Below are positions 10,464 to 49,803 of a stretch of DNA of 51,129 nt, one piece after another. Position 1 is the first letter of the stretch. Every line of letters begins with the position of its first letter. The position numbers were made by a program, and so were the translations under genes. Location: positions 1-51,129 of the forward strand of contig JADGQV010000003.1 of NCBI GenBank assembly GCA_017881465.1, given 5' to 3'. The notes beneath the pieces were generated by a model. The model did not search any database. It worked only from the letters and a program-made list of their open reading frames with translations, and was not told where the DNA came from. This DNA comes from Gemmatimonadaceae bacterium. Its GTDB lineage: Bacteria; Gemmatimonadota; Gemmatimonadetes; Gemmatimonadales; Gemmatimonadaceae.

Positions 10464-10517
10464 TCGGGCCTCGCGATACGATGCGACGGTCGTCGGGAGT
10501 GGACCTGATGGTAATCT

Positions 10518-10551
10518 ACGGTTTCAGAGTGGGTACGGATTCAGAGTGGGA
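10518..10551 (+). repeat. Tandem 17-bp direct repeat upstream of cysK
   Basis: Two adjacent 17-base units, 10518-10534 and 10535-10551, match at 15 of 17 positions: ACGG, T or A, TTCAGAGTGGG, T or A. They lie 54-88 bases before the cysK start. Same-face tandem sites spaced by 17 bases could bind a regulator, or this may be a slippage duplication. Confidence 0.6.
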
Positions 10552-10605
10552 ATTTGCCGGGCGCGCATTGATGGTGCTATTTACAATTCGACCGAAGGAG
10601 GAATT

Positions 10606-11583
10606 GTGGCACAGCGTCGGATATACCGCGACATAACGGAGACCATGGGCGAGACTCCGCTCATCCAGCTCAATCGCGTTGGGGCGGGCTTGCCGGCGCG
10701 CATCGTCGTGAAGCACGAAGGATTCAATCCGTTCAGTTCCGTGAAGGATCGCATCGGCGCGGCAATGATCGACGACGCGATCGGCGACAAATCGCTGCGT
10801 CCTGGAATGTTCATCGTCGAGCCGACCAGCGGAAACACCGGCATCGGCCTCGCCTACGCGGCGGCGGCTCGCGGATTTCGTTGCGTGTTCACGATGCCGG
10901 AGACGATGACAATCGAACGACGGAACATTCTGCGTGCTCTGGGTTGTCGCGTCCTGCTGACCGAGGGTCCGAAGGGGATGAAGGGAGCCATCGCTCGCGC
11001 GGAAGAAATCCTGGCGCGGCTTGGCGACCGGGCGTGGATGCCGAGGCAATTCGACAATCCATCGAATCCGGCGGTGCATTACAGAACGACTGGGCCCGAG
11101 ATCTGGGAAGGGACGAACGGAACGGTGGACATCTTCGTTGCCGGTGTTGGAACGGGCGGTACGATCACCGGCGCGGGGCGATTTCTCCGCGAGAAGAAAC
11201 CGGGGATCAAAATCATCGCGGTCGAGCCCGCGGAGAGCCCGGTGCTGTCGGGCGGTGAGCCTGCTTCGCACAAACAGCAGGGGATCGGCGCGGGCTTCAT
11301 CCCTGGCAACCTCGACAGAAAAGTCTACCAGGAAGTGATCCAGGTGACGAACGACAACGCTATCGCCACGGCCCGCCGGCTTGCGCGCGAGGAAGCGATC
11401 TTCGCGGGAATCTCCTCGGGCTCGATTACATGGGCAGCCCTGCAGGTGGCGGCGCGGCCGGAGAACAAGGGCAAGCTGATCGTGTCCGTGATCTGCGATT
11501 TCGGGGAGCGTTACCTCTCCAACCCGGTGTACGCCGATCTTCCCGATCCGGATTATTCGGACATAGAGAAGGCTTTGGTCTGA
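10606..11583 (+). CDS. cysK: Cysteine synthase A (O-acetylserine sulfhydrylase)
   Basis: 325 aa PLP enzyme converting O-acetylserine and sulfide to cysteine in the cytoplasm. The PLP lysine is K47 in NPFSSVKDR, the phosphate/substrate loop is SGNTG at 75-79, and the cofactor phosphate loop GTGGTITG follows near 180. The start is GTG 10606 because AAGGAGG lies 4 bases upstream and the N terminus then matches the family; a longer in-frame start at 10546 is unlikely. Length fits CysK, without the CBS extension of cystathionine beta-synthase. The C terminus (NPVYADLPDPDYSDI) may carry an extra tail relative to short CysK forms. It is followed by a methyltransferase 7 bases after the stop. Confidence 0.93.
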   Translation: MAQRRIYRDITETMGETPLIQLNRVGAGLPARIVVKHEGFNPFSSVKDRIGAAMIDDAIGDKSLRPGMFIVEPTSGNTGIGLAYAAAARGFRCVFTMPETMTIERRNILRALGCRVLLTEGPKGMKGAIARAEEILARLGDRAWMPRQFDNPSNPAVHYRTTGPEIWEGTNGTVDIFVAGVGTGGTITGAGRFLREKKPGIKIIAVEPAESPVLSGGEPASHKQQGIGAGFIPGNLDRKVYQEVIQVTNDNAIATARRLAREEAIFAGISSGSITWAALQVAARPENKGKLIVSVICDFGERYLSNPVYADLPDPDYSDIEKALV

Positions 11584-11590
11584 ACCGGCC

Positions 11591-12421
11591 ATGAGTAATA
11601 AGACGGTCTCTGAAGAGAGCACGCGGTTCGACGGCTCCATTCCGGAGATGTACGACCAGCACCTCGGAGAACTTCTCTTCGAACCGTACGCGGCGGATAT
11701 CGCCGACCGAGTCGCAAAGCGGCGACCCCGGAAAGTTCTCGAGATTGCGGCAGGGACCGGGATAGCTTCGCGTCGGCTACTCGAGGCGCTGCCGCGGGGA
11801 ACCGCGCTGACGGTCACCGATCTCAATACGCCGATGCTCGAATACGCCCAGCATAAGATTGGAGCGGACGGGCGCGGTGCCGAGTGGCGGCAGGCAGACG
11901 CACAGGACCTCCCTTTTCCGGACGAGTCGTTCGACGCCGTCGTCTGTCAATTCGGCGTGATGTTCTTTCCCGACAAGCACAAGGGACTGCGCGAGTTCAA
12001 TCGCGTGCTCGAGAAAGGCGGGGCTCTCATCTTCAACGTTTGGGATTCGCTTGAGCGGAATCCAGTCGGGATGATCACGCACTCGACGATCGGAAAGTTC
12101 TTCCGGACGGACGCACCGGACTTTTATCAGATACCGTTCGGACTGGGGGACGTGAGTGAAGTGCGGCGCCTGGTGGAAGAGGCAGGATTCAAGGAGATCG
12201 TGATCGAAACTCTCTCACTCACGGGGAGCAGCGAATCGCCTGAGAGCGCCGCACTGGGACTGGTGAGAGGAAATCCAGTGATCAATACGATCAGGGAGCG
12301 CGGGACCGCCAATATCGACGAGATCGTGCGAGCCGTAGCTCGTGCCGTGGAGGAACGGTTCGGCGCGCGGCCTCTTCGCGTGCCACTTCGCGCGCATGTC
12401 GTGAGTGCGGTTAAGCCGTGA
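11591..12421 (+). CDS. Class I SAM-dependent methyltransferase (UbiE/Methyltransf_11 type)
   Basis: 276 aa. The SAM-binding motif I is VLEIAAGTGIASRRL (about residues 46-60), followed by acidic VTDLNTPML and the post-motif DAQDLPFPDESFDAVVCQFGVMFFPD. This is the small-molecule methyltransferase fold of the UbiE/Methyltransf_11/25 group. The substrate cannot be deduced. It starts 7 bases after cysK and is followed after 10 bases by an ICMT-like membrane protein, so the three probably share a transcript. Linkage of cysteine synthesis and methylation is suggestive but not informative on its own. Confidence 0.88.
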   Translation: MSNKTVSEESTRFDGSIPEMYDQHLGELLFEPYAADIADRVAKRRPRKVLEIAAGTGIASRRLLEALPRGTALTVTDLNTPMLEYAQHKIGADGRGAEWRQADAQDLPFPDESFDAVVCQFGVMFFPDKHKGLREFNRVLEKGGALIFNVWDSLERNPVGMITHSTIGKFFRTDAPDFYQIPFGLGDVSEVRRLVEEAGFKEIVIETLSLTGSSESPESAALGLVRGNPVINTIRERGTANIDEIVRAVARAVEERFGARPLRVPLRAHVVSAVKP

Positions 12422-17008: not shown

Positions 17009-17968
17009 CTAGGACGAGGGCGGTGCCGGTGGCACTCCTCCGAAAGCGTTGATAATCGCGAGCCCCATGTTGGCGAGTGTGAGCTGTGGCTCGTTGTCGA
17101 GAACCCAGCGCTGATCCTTGTTCTCCTTGGTCATCACGCAAGCCACGACGCGGTTGCGAAGGTACCAGAGCGTACACTCGGTTCGAACAGCGTCCGTCTC
17201 GCCATCCTTGTGGGCGGCGCGCGCTCCCTCGATGTAGCGCTGAAGCATGTAGTCCGTCGTGTTGTGCTCCAGGATGTCGAGCATAGCGGAATCGGCAGTG
17301 GGGTTCACCGCCTTGCCCTGCGCCATCAGCTCGAACAGATGCGCCATCTCGTTCGGAGTCGTCACACCCAGTCCGTACTTCACCGAGCTGTCCATCGCGA
17401 CGCTCGAGCTGCGGAGGAAACTCTTCGAATGAACGCGCGTGTGCTGGAGCCCGAGTGAATCCATCTTCGCCCAGACACGCCGGATGATGATCCGGTCGAG
17501 CAGAAGATTTGTCGCGGTGTTGTCGCTGATCGTGGACATGAGCCACACCGCGTCGTGGACGGTGAGCACCGTTCCGTTGTGAAGGAACTGGGTGACCCCC
17601 GAGCCCGGCACCTGGTCGATCTTGAGCACAGTGAGCGGATCGTCGAGCGAGAGCTGGCCCTTCGCCACGAGATCGTATACCGTCACGAGAATCGCAACCT
17701 TGATCAGGCTGGCGGTGGGAAAGGTCTCGTCTCCGCGCCGGTTGATGCGCGCGCCAGTCTCGAGATCGATGACGCTGTAACCGACGACGCCGTGATGCGC
17801 GTCCGCGATCGAGTCGAGCTTTCGGCGAAGAGCAGCGGTATCAGCGCGAACAATCTGTAGGCGGCCCACTCCTGTTTGGCCGACGCGTGCGGCAGCGCAG
17901 GCGATCACACCCGCGAGAAGGATCGCGGCGTAAGTGGCAACTACGCGTAGTGTGCGGGATCGAGTCAT
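17009..17968 (-). CDS. Class A beta-lactamase-fold serine hydrolase, atypical active site
   Basis: 319 aa with an N-terminal signal or membrane segment (residues 8-28). The nucleophile motif is S87-L-I-K90 and the second motif is S148-D-N150, both typical of class A. The third motif, normally K-T/S-G, reads K254-D-G256. The omega-loop stretch between residues 180 and 203 (SKSFLRSS to GVTTP) has no ExxxN-type glutamate where class A enzymes place the deacylating Glu166. It may therefore be slow at deacylation, acting as a DD-peptidase-like or ligand-binding protein rather than as a beta-lactamase. It is 11 bases downstream of the S9 peptidase on the same strand. Confidence 0.88.
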   Translation of the reverse strand: MTRSRTLRVVATYAAILLAGVIACAAARVGQTGVGRLQIVRADTAALRRKLDSIADAHHGVVGYSVIDLETGARINRRGDETFPTASLIKVAILVTVYDLVAKGQLSLDDPLTVLKIDQVPGSGVTQFLHNGTVLTVHDAVWLMSTISDNTATNLLLDRIIIRRVWAKMDSLGLQHTRVHSKSFLRSSSVAMDSSVKYGLGVTTPNEMAHLFELMAQGKAVNPTADSAMLDILEHNTTDYMLQRYIEGARAAHKDGETDAVRTECTLWYLRNRVVACVMTKENKDQRWVLDNEPQLTLANMGLAIINAFGGVPPAPPSS

Positions 17969-21200: not shown

Positions 21201-22172
21201 GTGAGAGCAGCGATAGCCCTGCTGCAAGCAGTCGCGTAGACGATTCAGGACACCGCTCCTGCCGGCGGCCAGCCCGGGGGTCCGGCCGGACCGGGCGGCC
21301 GACCGCCCGGCTTCTCCTTCACCAAAGCGTTCTTCGAGCTGCTGCAGTTCGTCGGCTACTTCCTGGCGATCGGCGCGATTGGATTCCGATTCGGGATCGT
21401 GAGGCAGATTCGCGGGATGTCGGACGAGGCGAAGGCAATCCTCCGCGCCGACAACGCCGCGCTGCTCGGCATCCTCGGCATCGTCCTTCTCGGGCTATCC
21501 TATCTCGGCGGCCCGTACATCGACTCGATCGCGCATCACAAGGCGTTCGCCGAATCACTGCCCAAGAACATGGCGCAATTCGAATTCAGGATGACTATGC
21601 TGGCTCTCGCCCTGGTGGGGTTCGCGCTCGTTCGCGCATCGTCGTCGGTCGGGTGGATGCTGGCCGCGATCGGGATTCTCGCCGCGGTACTGCAACCCGT
21701 CTACACCGGCAGATTCCCCAACAAGGTGAACGCGGTCCACATCTTCGCCGCGTCCACCTAGCTCGGCACGCTGCTGGTGCTAATGCTGATCGGAATTCGA
21801 AGGATGATCAGGAGCACGAGCACCGGCGTCCAGCGCGCGGAGCTGATCGGGGATCTCGTGAATTCCTTTTCGTCGCTCGCGCTCGTAGCGGCGGCGATCG
21901 TGGCAATCACGGGTGTCACCACGGCGTGGCTGAATCTGAAGCGGCTCTCGTCTCTCTGGACCACGAGTTACGGCATAGCGCTCGTCGGCAAGCTCATTTT
22001 CGTGGTCATCGTCGTCGTGCTGGGCGCGTGGAACTGGCGGCGCGTCCGCCCATCACTCGGCGGCGAAGGATCGGAGGAGATCATTCGCCGCTCGGCGACA
22101 ATGGAGCTGACGTTCGCCGCCTTCGTACTCGTTGCTACTTCGGTACTTGTGAGCCTCCCGTCGCCGAGGTAG
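21201..22172 (+). pseudogene. CopD-like membrane protein gene with two in-frame TAG codons
   Basis: A 324-codon frame from GTG 21201 (GGGAGAAAG upstream) to TAG 22170-22172 is open except for TAG at 21237-21239 and 21759-21761. The encoded membrane protein has about eight helices and fits the CopD/YcnJ copper-resistance family. At the second TAG the context is HIFAAST-stop-LGTLLVLML. The intact CopCD in this window reads HVLGGASWLGSLLCVML at the matching place (W327), so the TAG replaces a conserved Trp (TGG to TAG). The first TAG also falls at a plausible Trp. No ATG, GTG or TTG lies between the first TAG and 21399. The rest of the frame is well preserved, so either the mutations are recent, they are sequencing errors, or amber codons are read through. 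The 3' end overlaps the convergent S9 gene by 38 bases. Confidence 0.8.
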
Positions 22173-40034: not shown

Positions 40035-41414
40035 TCAGGGCGAAATGCCCGTCAGGAATCCTGTGACGAGAAGGATCAGAAAACCGAGGCTAAGCTCGAG
40101 CGCTGCTGATTGCCGAAGCCGGCTCGTTCCCTCCTGCCTGACGAGCTGGGGCTGCACTCGGCGAAAGTTGTAAGCTCCCATCATCAGGGTGAGCGCAACC
40201 AGAGCCAGTTTCACGAGCAGAACCTGCCCATACGCAGTTCGCCAAAGGGCGGTGAGATGCTGAACATGCACCCACGACGCGATGACGCCGCTGACGACAA
40301 CGATGCTCGCGGAAAACAGGGCAACGGGAGAGAAAGCGTTGACGAGCGCGGCTACGGACTGCCATCGCTCTGTTCCTTCGAATGTGAACGATATCGGAAC
40401 GCCGATCAGCATCACGCAGAGGAGACTGCCCAGCCAGCTGGCTCCGCCAAGTACGTGAAGGAAATCGCTGGCGATCAGGAGTGAGGTGAACCTCGGACTC
40501 GCCGCGGCGTGTCCGGCCAGTGCCGGCGTAACCGCGAGTACGATCGCCGAGAAGCTCGCCACCGACCACGCGCCGCGAAACCGCCGCGTGGCGAAAGCAA
40601 AGGAGACGAGCGCTACGAGAGCGGCTCCAAGCTCCAGCAGGAGCGCGAATCCCCACCGGGTGTGCATCGTCATATCCGTCATGCTCATCGCCTGCATGCC
40701 GGGAACCACGCTCATCATCTCCGACTCGAGAAGTATTCTGGCAAATGCCGTCAAGATGACGAGAACGCTCGCAGCGAGCCCGAGGATCGCCGCGCGCCCT
40801 TCCATGCGTGCAGCCAGGCCCGGGTCGATCCCCCTCGCTCGCGGGACGACCAAGGTTCTGAAAGTCGTTGCGCCGATAAGGACCAGAAGACCGACAAACG
40901 AAAACGCGCGAGCCAGGGAATTGGACAGCGAGGAAGCGGCATCGGTTTCTTCCTCCCCCCCGTCTCTCGTCGATGAAGCCATCCCATTGGGGGAGACGGT
41001 CGTGCCTGCGCCGCCCTGCGGCGTGGGTCGATCTGCTGAAGCGGGTGCTTCAGTCAAAACGAGGAATTCAAAGCTTCCGCGGGACAGATGCCCATCTGAC
41101 GCGGCGGTTCTCCATGTAACGGTATACCGCCCCGGCGGAAGAAAGTCGGTGACGCGAAAAGAAACCGCGAGCGGATCGCCTTGCTCGTTGGCCGGTGTTC
41201 CCAATGCGAACGCTCTCCCAGTCGCGTCCTTGATGGAAACGAACGTCATCGTCAGCTCTGGCCGCTCGGAGAACCAAAGCCGGATTAGTGGTGGTGAGAC
41301 GGTGATCCGGGATCCAGCTGCAGGCTCACTGCGCCTCAGGTGAGCGTGCGCCCATGCACGCACCGGATACAACAGCAATCCAAGCGCGAGAGCGAGGCGC
41401 AAATTTCTAGTCAC
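40035..41414 (-). CDS. CopC-CopD fusion copper-resistance protein
   Basis: 459 aa from GTG 41412-41414. The signal ends AWA, giving a mature N terminus H23-A-H25, the CopC copper ligand position. The beta-sandwich CopC domain spans 23-120, with D107 and H109 in SDGHLSRGSF completing a Cu(II) site. A Gly/Ser linker leads to the eight-helix CopD domain (about 170-455), which contains W327 in HVLGGASWLG. A Met-rich loop at 233-250 has seven methionines in 18 residues, suggesting Cu(I) handling. It imports or relays copper across the inner membrane. Downstream is the His-rich barrel protein and upstream a decayed gene. Confidence 0.93.
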   Translation of the reverse strand: MTRNLRLALALGLLLYPVRAWAHAHLRRSEPAAGSRITVSPPLIRLWFSERPELTMTFVSIKDATGRAFALGTPANEQGDPLAVSFRVTDFLPPGRYTVTWRTAASDGHLSRGSFEFLVLTEAPASADRPTPQGGAGTTVSPNGMASSTRDGGEEETDAASSLSNSLARAFSFVGLLVLIGATTFRTLVVPRARGIDPGLAARMEGRAAILGLAASVLVILTAFARILLESEMMSVVPGMQAMSMTDMTMHTRWGFALLLELGAALVALVSFAFATRRFRGAWSVASFSAIVLAVTPALAGHAAASPRFTSLLIASDFLHVLGGASWLGSLLCVMLIGVPISFTFEGTERWQSVAALVNAFSPVALFSASIVVVSGVIASWVHVQHLTALWRTAYGQVLLVKLALVALTLMMGAYNFRRVQPQLVRQEGTSRLRQSAALELSLGFLILLVTGFLTGISP

Positions 41415-48436: not shown

Positions 48437-49357
48437 CTAACCGGTTTGTGTGGTTGTCGTGCTCCGCGCCGTCGTGATGAGAGCGACTGCGCAAATGACG
48501 ATCGCGGCGGCGACTCCAGTGCGAATGGACAACCGCTCACCCGCGATCGCCCAGCCGAGCAGGACGGCCACGATTGGATTGACGTACGCGTATGTACCAA
48601 GACGCGCAAGGGAGACTCTGTCGAGCAGCCAGATGTACGACGTGAAGCCGAGCAGCGACCCGAAAGTGATGAGATAGAGCAGGCCCACGGCCGATGCGTT
48701 CGAGATGCGATGAATGTCGATGTGAGCGAGCTCGCCCGTGATTGCCCCAACGATCAGCAACAGTGCGCCGCCACCGAGCATCTCCATGCCTGTGGTGAGC
48801 AGTCCGGATTCAGGCAGCTGTGCGTCGCGCGACCAGAAGGAGCCGATCGCCCACGACAAGGAGCCGAGTATCAGCACCAGAGCGCCAATGGGACTCACGC
48901 CTCCGTGACCGCCGACATCGGACGGCCCCACGAGCACGACGATCCCAATGAAACCGAGGACCAGTCCAACCAGGACTGCACCGCTTGGACGTTTGCGCGG
49001 GGGCCTGACCCACTCGATGATCACCAGCCAGAAGGGAAGAATCGACACAAGCAGGGCGGTGAGGCCCGACGGAACGAACTGCTCCGCCCATACGACTGCT
49101 CCATTCCCACCGAGGAGGAGGAAGCCACCTGCGACGATTGCGTTGCGCCAGTGGAGACGCGTCGGCTTTGGCGCTCCACGATATCGCGCCCACAGGTAGA
49201 GCATCGCTCCGGAAACCACGAAACGAATCCCGCCCATGATGAACGGTGGAATCGTCTCGACGGCGTAGCTGATTGCGAGGTATGTCGATCCCCAGATCAG
49301 ATAGATCGAAGCAAACGCGGCGATTATCTGCGCGCGCGAAGCGCGTTTATATGTCAC
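48437..49357 (-). CDS. EamA/DMT-family transporter
   Basis: 306 aa with ten predicted helices in two EamA repeats, including IYLIWGSTYLAISYAVETIPPF at the first helix pair and YAYVNPIVAVLLGWAIAGERL near the end. Typical DMT exporters of the YedA/RhaT-like group move amino acids or metabolites. It lacks the His tail of the other DMT protein at 35726-36808. Start GTG 49355-49357 overlaps the stop of the ArfB-type gene by 4 bases (GTGA), so translation is coupled. Confidence 0.9.
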   Translation of the reverse strand: MTYKRASRAQIIAAFASIYLIWGSTYLAISYAVETIPPFIMGGIRFVVSGAMLYLWARYRGAPKPTRLHWRNAIVAGGFLLLGGNGAVVWAEQFVPSGLTALLVSILPFWLVIIEWVRPPRKRPSGAVLVGLVLGFIGIVVLVGPSDVGGHGGVSPIGALVLILGSLSWAIGSFWSRDAQLPESGLLTTGMEMLGGGALLLIVGAITGELAHIDIHRISNASAVGLLYLITFGSLLGFTSYIWLLDRVSLARLGTYAYVNPIVAVLLGWAIAGERLSIRTGVAAAIVICAVALITTARSTTTTQTG

Positions 49358-49803
49358 TCGGGGAGGTTCCGCCTCTCGCGCTTCTTGTGCGACAGTCGCT
49401 TTTTTCCCTCGAGCCGTGCTTCCTTTGAAGCCCGTGTGGGTCGTGTCGGTCGTCTTTTCTTTGGAATCAGCAGCGCACGACGCACGAGGTCGGCGAGTCG
49501 CTCCTCCGCGAGATCGCGATTGCGGCTCTGGCTCCGCATGTCGCTCGCGACGACGCGGATGCTCCCCTCGGTTGTGAGCCGAGACGCGAGCTTCTCACGA
49601 AGGCGCGCCCGTTGCTCCTCGGTGAGTGCGCGCGATCCGAGAACGTTCCAGAAGATCTCCACGCGCGACGATGTCTTGTTCACGTGCTGTCCGCCGGCGC
49701 CCGACGACCTCGACACCCGCATGTCGAGCTCGCTTCGCGGAATCGAGAGCGCCTCGTTGACCGCGAGGAGATTCCGGGGGGCGGTCCCCGAGGTGTCGCT
49801 CAC
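49354..49803 (-). CDS. arfB: Peptidyl-tRNA hydrolase ArfB-type ribosome rescue factor
   Basis: 149 aa from GTG 49801-49803. The catalytic GGQ is at 37-39 (SSGAGGQHVNKTSSRVE), as in release factors, but the codon-recognition domain is absent. The C terminus is a long basic tail rich in Lys and Arg (KKRRPTRPTRASKEARLEGKK and following), which in ArfB inserts into the empty mRNA channel. It frees ribosomes stalled without a stop codon. It lies 4 bases after the ABC-2 permease and overlaps the EamA gene start. Confidence 0.92.
   Translation of the reverse strand: MSDTSGTAPRNLLAVNEALSIPRSELDMRVSRSSGAGGQHVNKTSSRVEIFWNVLGSRALTEEQRARLREKLASRLTTEGSIRVVASDMRSQSRNRDLAEERLADLVRRALLIPKKRRPTRPTRASKEARLEGKKRLSHKKRERRNLPE

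Follow-up and report, generated by a model that had tools for sequence, protein, structure and literature searches.

We identified an interrupted gene of the CopD family of membrane proteins at positions 21201-22172 (+ strand) of the window, by which we mean the whole 51,129-nucleotide stretch of DNA analysed here. Very probably, this is an ordinary nonsense pseudogene that was recently inactivated in the source lineage. The source is a soil Gemmatimonadaceae genome assembled in draft form (2.58 Mb, 198 contigs, 93% complete), and its near relatives are Gemmatimonadaceae/Gemmatimonadales metagenome genomes. Read from the GTG at 21201, the frame is unbroken save for two TAG codons at 21237-21239 (codon 13, premature stop 1) and 21759-21761 (codon 187, premature stop 2); its read-through length is 323 codons, and it ends at a terminal TAG (22170-22172). 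The read-through frame matched the Pfam CopD domain (PF05425) over residues 219-316 with 69.8 bits, above the curated gathering cut-off of 32.1 bits, and this domain (21855-22148, + strand) lies in full 3′ of both stops. These data bear out the description of the locus in an earlier note, made from the letters of the window, as a CopD-like gene with a frame continuous but for two TAGs. Orthologues from the same genus (eight, of which the one in G017 is partial) match the read-through frame over its full length and share its terminal stop; therefore the frame is not a product of chance. All eight carry the CopD frame uninterrupted.

The evidence is clearest at stop 2 (21759-21761, + strand). 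All eight same-genus orthologues have TGG at this codon, and Trp occupies the position in each of 33 distinct CopD homologues, including the CopCD protein encoded in the window itself (of the 38 rows in the homologue alignment, five are second copies of a gene that had come in from more than one collection). The proposal that this TAG falls at a conserved Trp was thus confirmed. Stop 1 (21237-21239, + strand) had also been placed at a plausible Trp, but the orthologues have Gln there in seven of the seven same-genus sequences that cover the site (six with CAA, the seventh with CAG). The suggested check, an alignment of orthologues at both TAGs, therefore found Trp at stop 2 and Gln, not Trp, at stop 1, and the idea that both stops were TGG-to-TAG changes holds for stop 2 and fails for stop 1. 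Judging from the orthologue codons, stop 1 is not a TGG-to-TAG change, and the ancestral codon would have been one for Gln. As CAA and TAG are two bases apart, stop 1 probably arose in two steps. Neither site carries a TAG in any of the relatives searched. The CopD gene of G026, a member of another genus, was considered as a further interrupted copy and rejected; the single TAG recorded for it is upstream of its own Met start and does not interrupt the gene.

Downstream of stop 1, the first possible in-frame start is the GTG at 21399-21401 (+ strand), with none before codon 67; therefore, the ordinary product of the gene would be 12 residues long. Use of this GTG would lose the first predicted membrane helix, according to a low-confidence structure model (mean pLDDT 60) that served for approximate helix positions only. 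A split gene, in which internal starts at GTG 21399 and GTG 21777 yield two shorter functional proteins, can draw on two open stretches, 120 and 131 codons long, but is extremely improbable, because the first piece would lack that first predicted helix and the second would start within the helix bearing stop 2 (both by the low-confidence model), the CopD gene is split in no relative, and the piece with the Pfam CopD domain lacks the invariant His.

Decay of the gene is also visible outside the two stops. His245, present in all 33 homologues, is replaced by Asn (AAT, 21933-21935, + strand; motif TTAWLHLKR), and Pro225, present in 31 of the 33, is replaced by Ser (TCG, 21873-21875, + strand; motif SFSPLAL). 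Together with the stop at W187, these substitutions make up three alterations among 63 strongly conserved positions. In a leave-one-out count at the 28 columns that are invariant in the 33 other CopD sequences, the window copy departs at two (the W187 stop and H245N), whereas the other CopD sequences show no or one departure each and the distant CopCD paralogue shows three, which are conservative. At the sequence level, H245N and P225S support a putative relaxation of selection on the CopD gene. When a codon model was fitted to nine species, omega was 0.38 for the window branch and 0.126 for the background (LRT 4.4 relative to a single ratio), and three control branches gave 0.075-0.125; the value of 0.38 did not differ significantly from 1 (LRT 1.5). 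The neighbouring genes rose 1.1- to 4.4-fold in omega on the same branch, compared with 2.8-fold for the CopD gene, showing that the excess is not gene-specific. The rate test is weak by itself because these neighbours rise too, and the losses at invariant sites weigh more as evidence of decay.

Could the true gene be intact, with the stops stemming from a mistake in sequencing or assembly, or from a minor strain variant in the metagenome assembly? This explanation is unlikely, although it is the strongest of the alternatives. It gains some ground from the fragmentation of the draft into 198 contigs, with a contig edge near the expected site of the gene for release factor 1 (RF1), and from a frame that is otherwise without frameshifts. 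Moreover, since about 0.023 (2.3%) of random substitutions in the CopD gene are nonsense (slightly more than half of these giving TAG), two stops with few other scars are mildly surprising. Against it, both stops fall in one gene while the other window genes with orthologues have no internal stop; H245N and P225S are further conserved-site substitutions in the same gene; and stop 1 is two bases away from the codon of nearly all relatives (CAA versus TAG). Two TAGs would be unremarkable once the gene had drifted freely for a modest part of the branch. No frameshifts or out-of-frame indels have accumulated in 21201-22172; their absence speaks against decay but would be consistent with an inactivation that is recent.

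The use of TAG in the rest of the window bears on whether the two codons might be decoded. Among the 35 window genes with an orthologue in the sister genome G003, 12 end in TAG, the gene at 21201-22172 being one of them; all 12 stop at the orthologous position in G003, which also has TAG there, and apart from the gene at 21201-22172 none of the 35 has an internal stop. TAG functions as a normal terminator in the source genome. A general reassignment of TAG was ruled out on these grounds, in agreement with the earlier judgement that a general recoding was unlikely. A search for an amber suppressor found no CUA anticodon among 44 tRNA-like matches (ARAGORN run on their loci), although one could be missing from an assembly that is 93% complete; this result is in line with the pseudogene reading. 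Two weak tRNA-like sequences, L074 (G000:C184:12476-12542) and L075 (G000:C176:15401-15462), received no call from ARAGORN. Their anticodon loops, read by eye, have GGG and TGG, which are Pro-like and not CTA, and the two are possibly degenerate tRNA copies.

RF1 was not found in the source assembly, where the sole strong match scored 266 bits, short of the cut-off at 423. This match scores like the below-cut-off, RF2-like second matches of sister genomes that also have RF1. Because contig C121 (G000, L130) starts about 1.2 kb from the position of RF1 in the close relative G003, the absence most likely reflects a contig gap and not a loss, and loss of RF1 was set aside. A short protein with an RF-1 domain (149 aa, PF00472) is encoded at 49354-49803 (- strand) of the window; it is of ArfB-like size and is possibly a ribosome-rescue hydrolase.

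Functional amber read-through, in which a near-cognate or suppressor tRNA decodes both TAGs and allows a small amount of full-length protein to be made, is quite improbable given these data. In its favour, most of the CopD gene still looks constrained (pairwise dN/dS of about 0.24-0.29), and a survey of bacterial in-frame stops argues that many of them are not pseudogenes (PMC7918605). However, the stops are private to the source genome, as neither TAG occurs in any relative searched; the two sites require different residues; no tRNA with a CUA anticodon was among the 44 tRNA-like matches; TAG is an ordinary terminator here; and the product would remain without the invariant His245. A more specific form, in which near-cognate tRNAs read both TAGs inefficiently and the resulting trace of full-length CopD amounts to down-regulation in the source species, is slightly less probable still.

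Recent inactivation, which the earlier note also favoured, thus accounts best for the loss of the invariant His, the raised dN/dS on the branch, the lack of an amber suppressor tRNA among the matches and the privacy of the stops. The ancestor would have had an intact CopD-type gene of the YebZ/YcnJ-like copper uptake family, as sister species do. In the window copy, TAG has replaced the Gln codon 13 and the invariant Trp187 codon, and His245 and the near-invariant Pro225 are lost. Translation would now halt after 12 residues, and presumably no functional product is made. The sole other CopD match in the assembly, a CopC-CopD fusion gene that lies 18 kb away (40035-41414, - strand) and is intact, may ease tolerance of the loss. 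For annotation, one of the two CopD-type genes in the assembly calls for a pseudogene label, and its two internal TAGs are no evidence for recoding or for a UAG-encoded residue in Gemmatimonadaceae.

In the sister genome G003, the CopD gene and the CopC-CopD fusion are both intact. Outside the window, contig C101 (77 kb) of the source assembly matched none of the G003 stretches compared. Elsewhere in the window, the ORFs at 10516-11826 (- strand) and 11591-12421 (+ strand) have no counterpart in G003 or G002, although the regions are otherwise syntenic, and 10516-12421 is a possible insertion or lineage-specific segment. The gene at 17009-17968 (- strand), which encodes a protein with a Beta-lactamase2 domain (PF13354), is kept in sister genomes.

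The window gene shares the PF05425 domain, above the cut-off, with members of the CopD family such as E. coli YebZ and the CopD part of B. subtilis YcnJ. An H-x6-W motif (H180 and W187 in read-through numbering) is common to all 33 homologues and E. coli YebZ; the window copy keeps His180, but its Trp187 is a TAG. As the motif is broken, we filed the gene as a broken member of the CopD family and not as a working one. His245 is invariant in the Gemmatimonadaceae homologues compared but not in YebZ, and is Asn in the window copy. In B. subtilis YcnJ, a conserved His in the CopD domain is required for function under copper limitation (PMC13344008). The in-frame stops surveyed in PMC7918605, which centres on those common to two or more species, are similar in that an internal TAG lies in a frame that is mostly constrained; the stops in the window copy differ in being unshared between species, and an invariant residue has been lost as well. 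Set beside bacterial nonsense pseudogenes, the window CopD gene, in which frameshifts are still absent, has nothing unusual about it, and it resembles them in its lineage-specific stops, substitutions at invariant sites and raised dN/dS.
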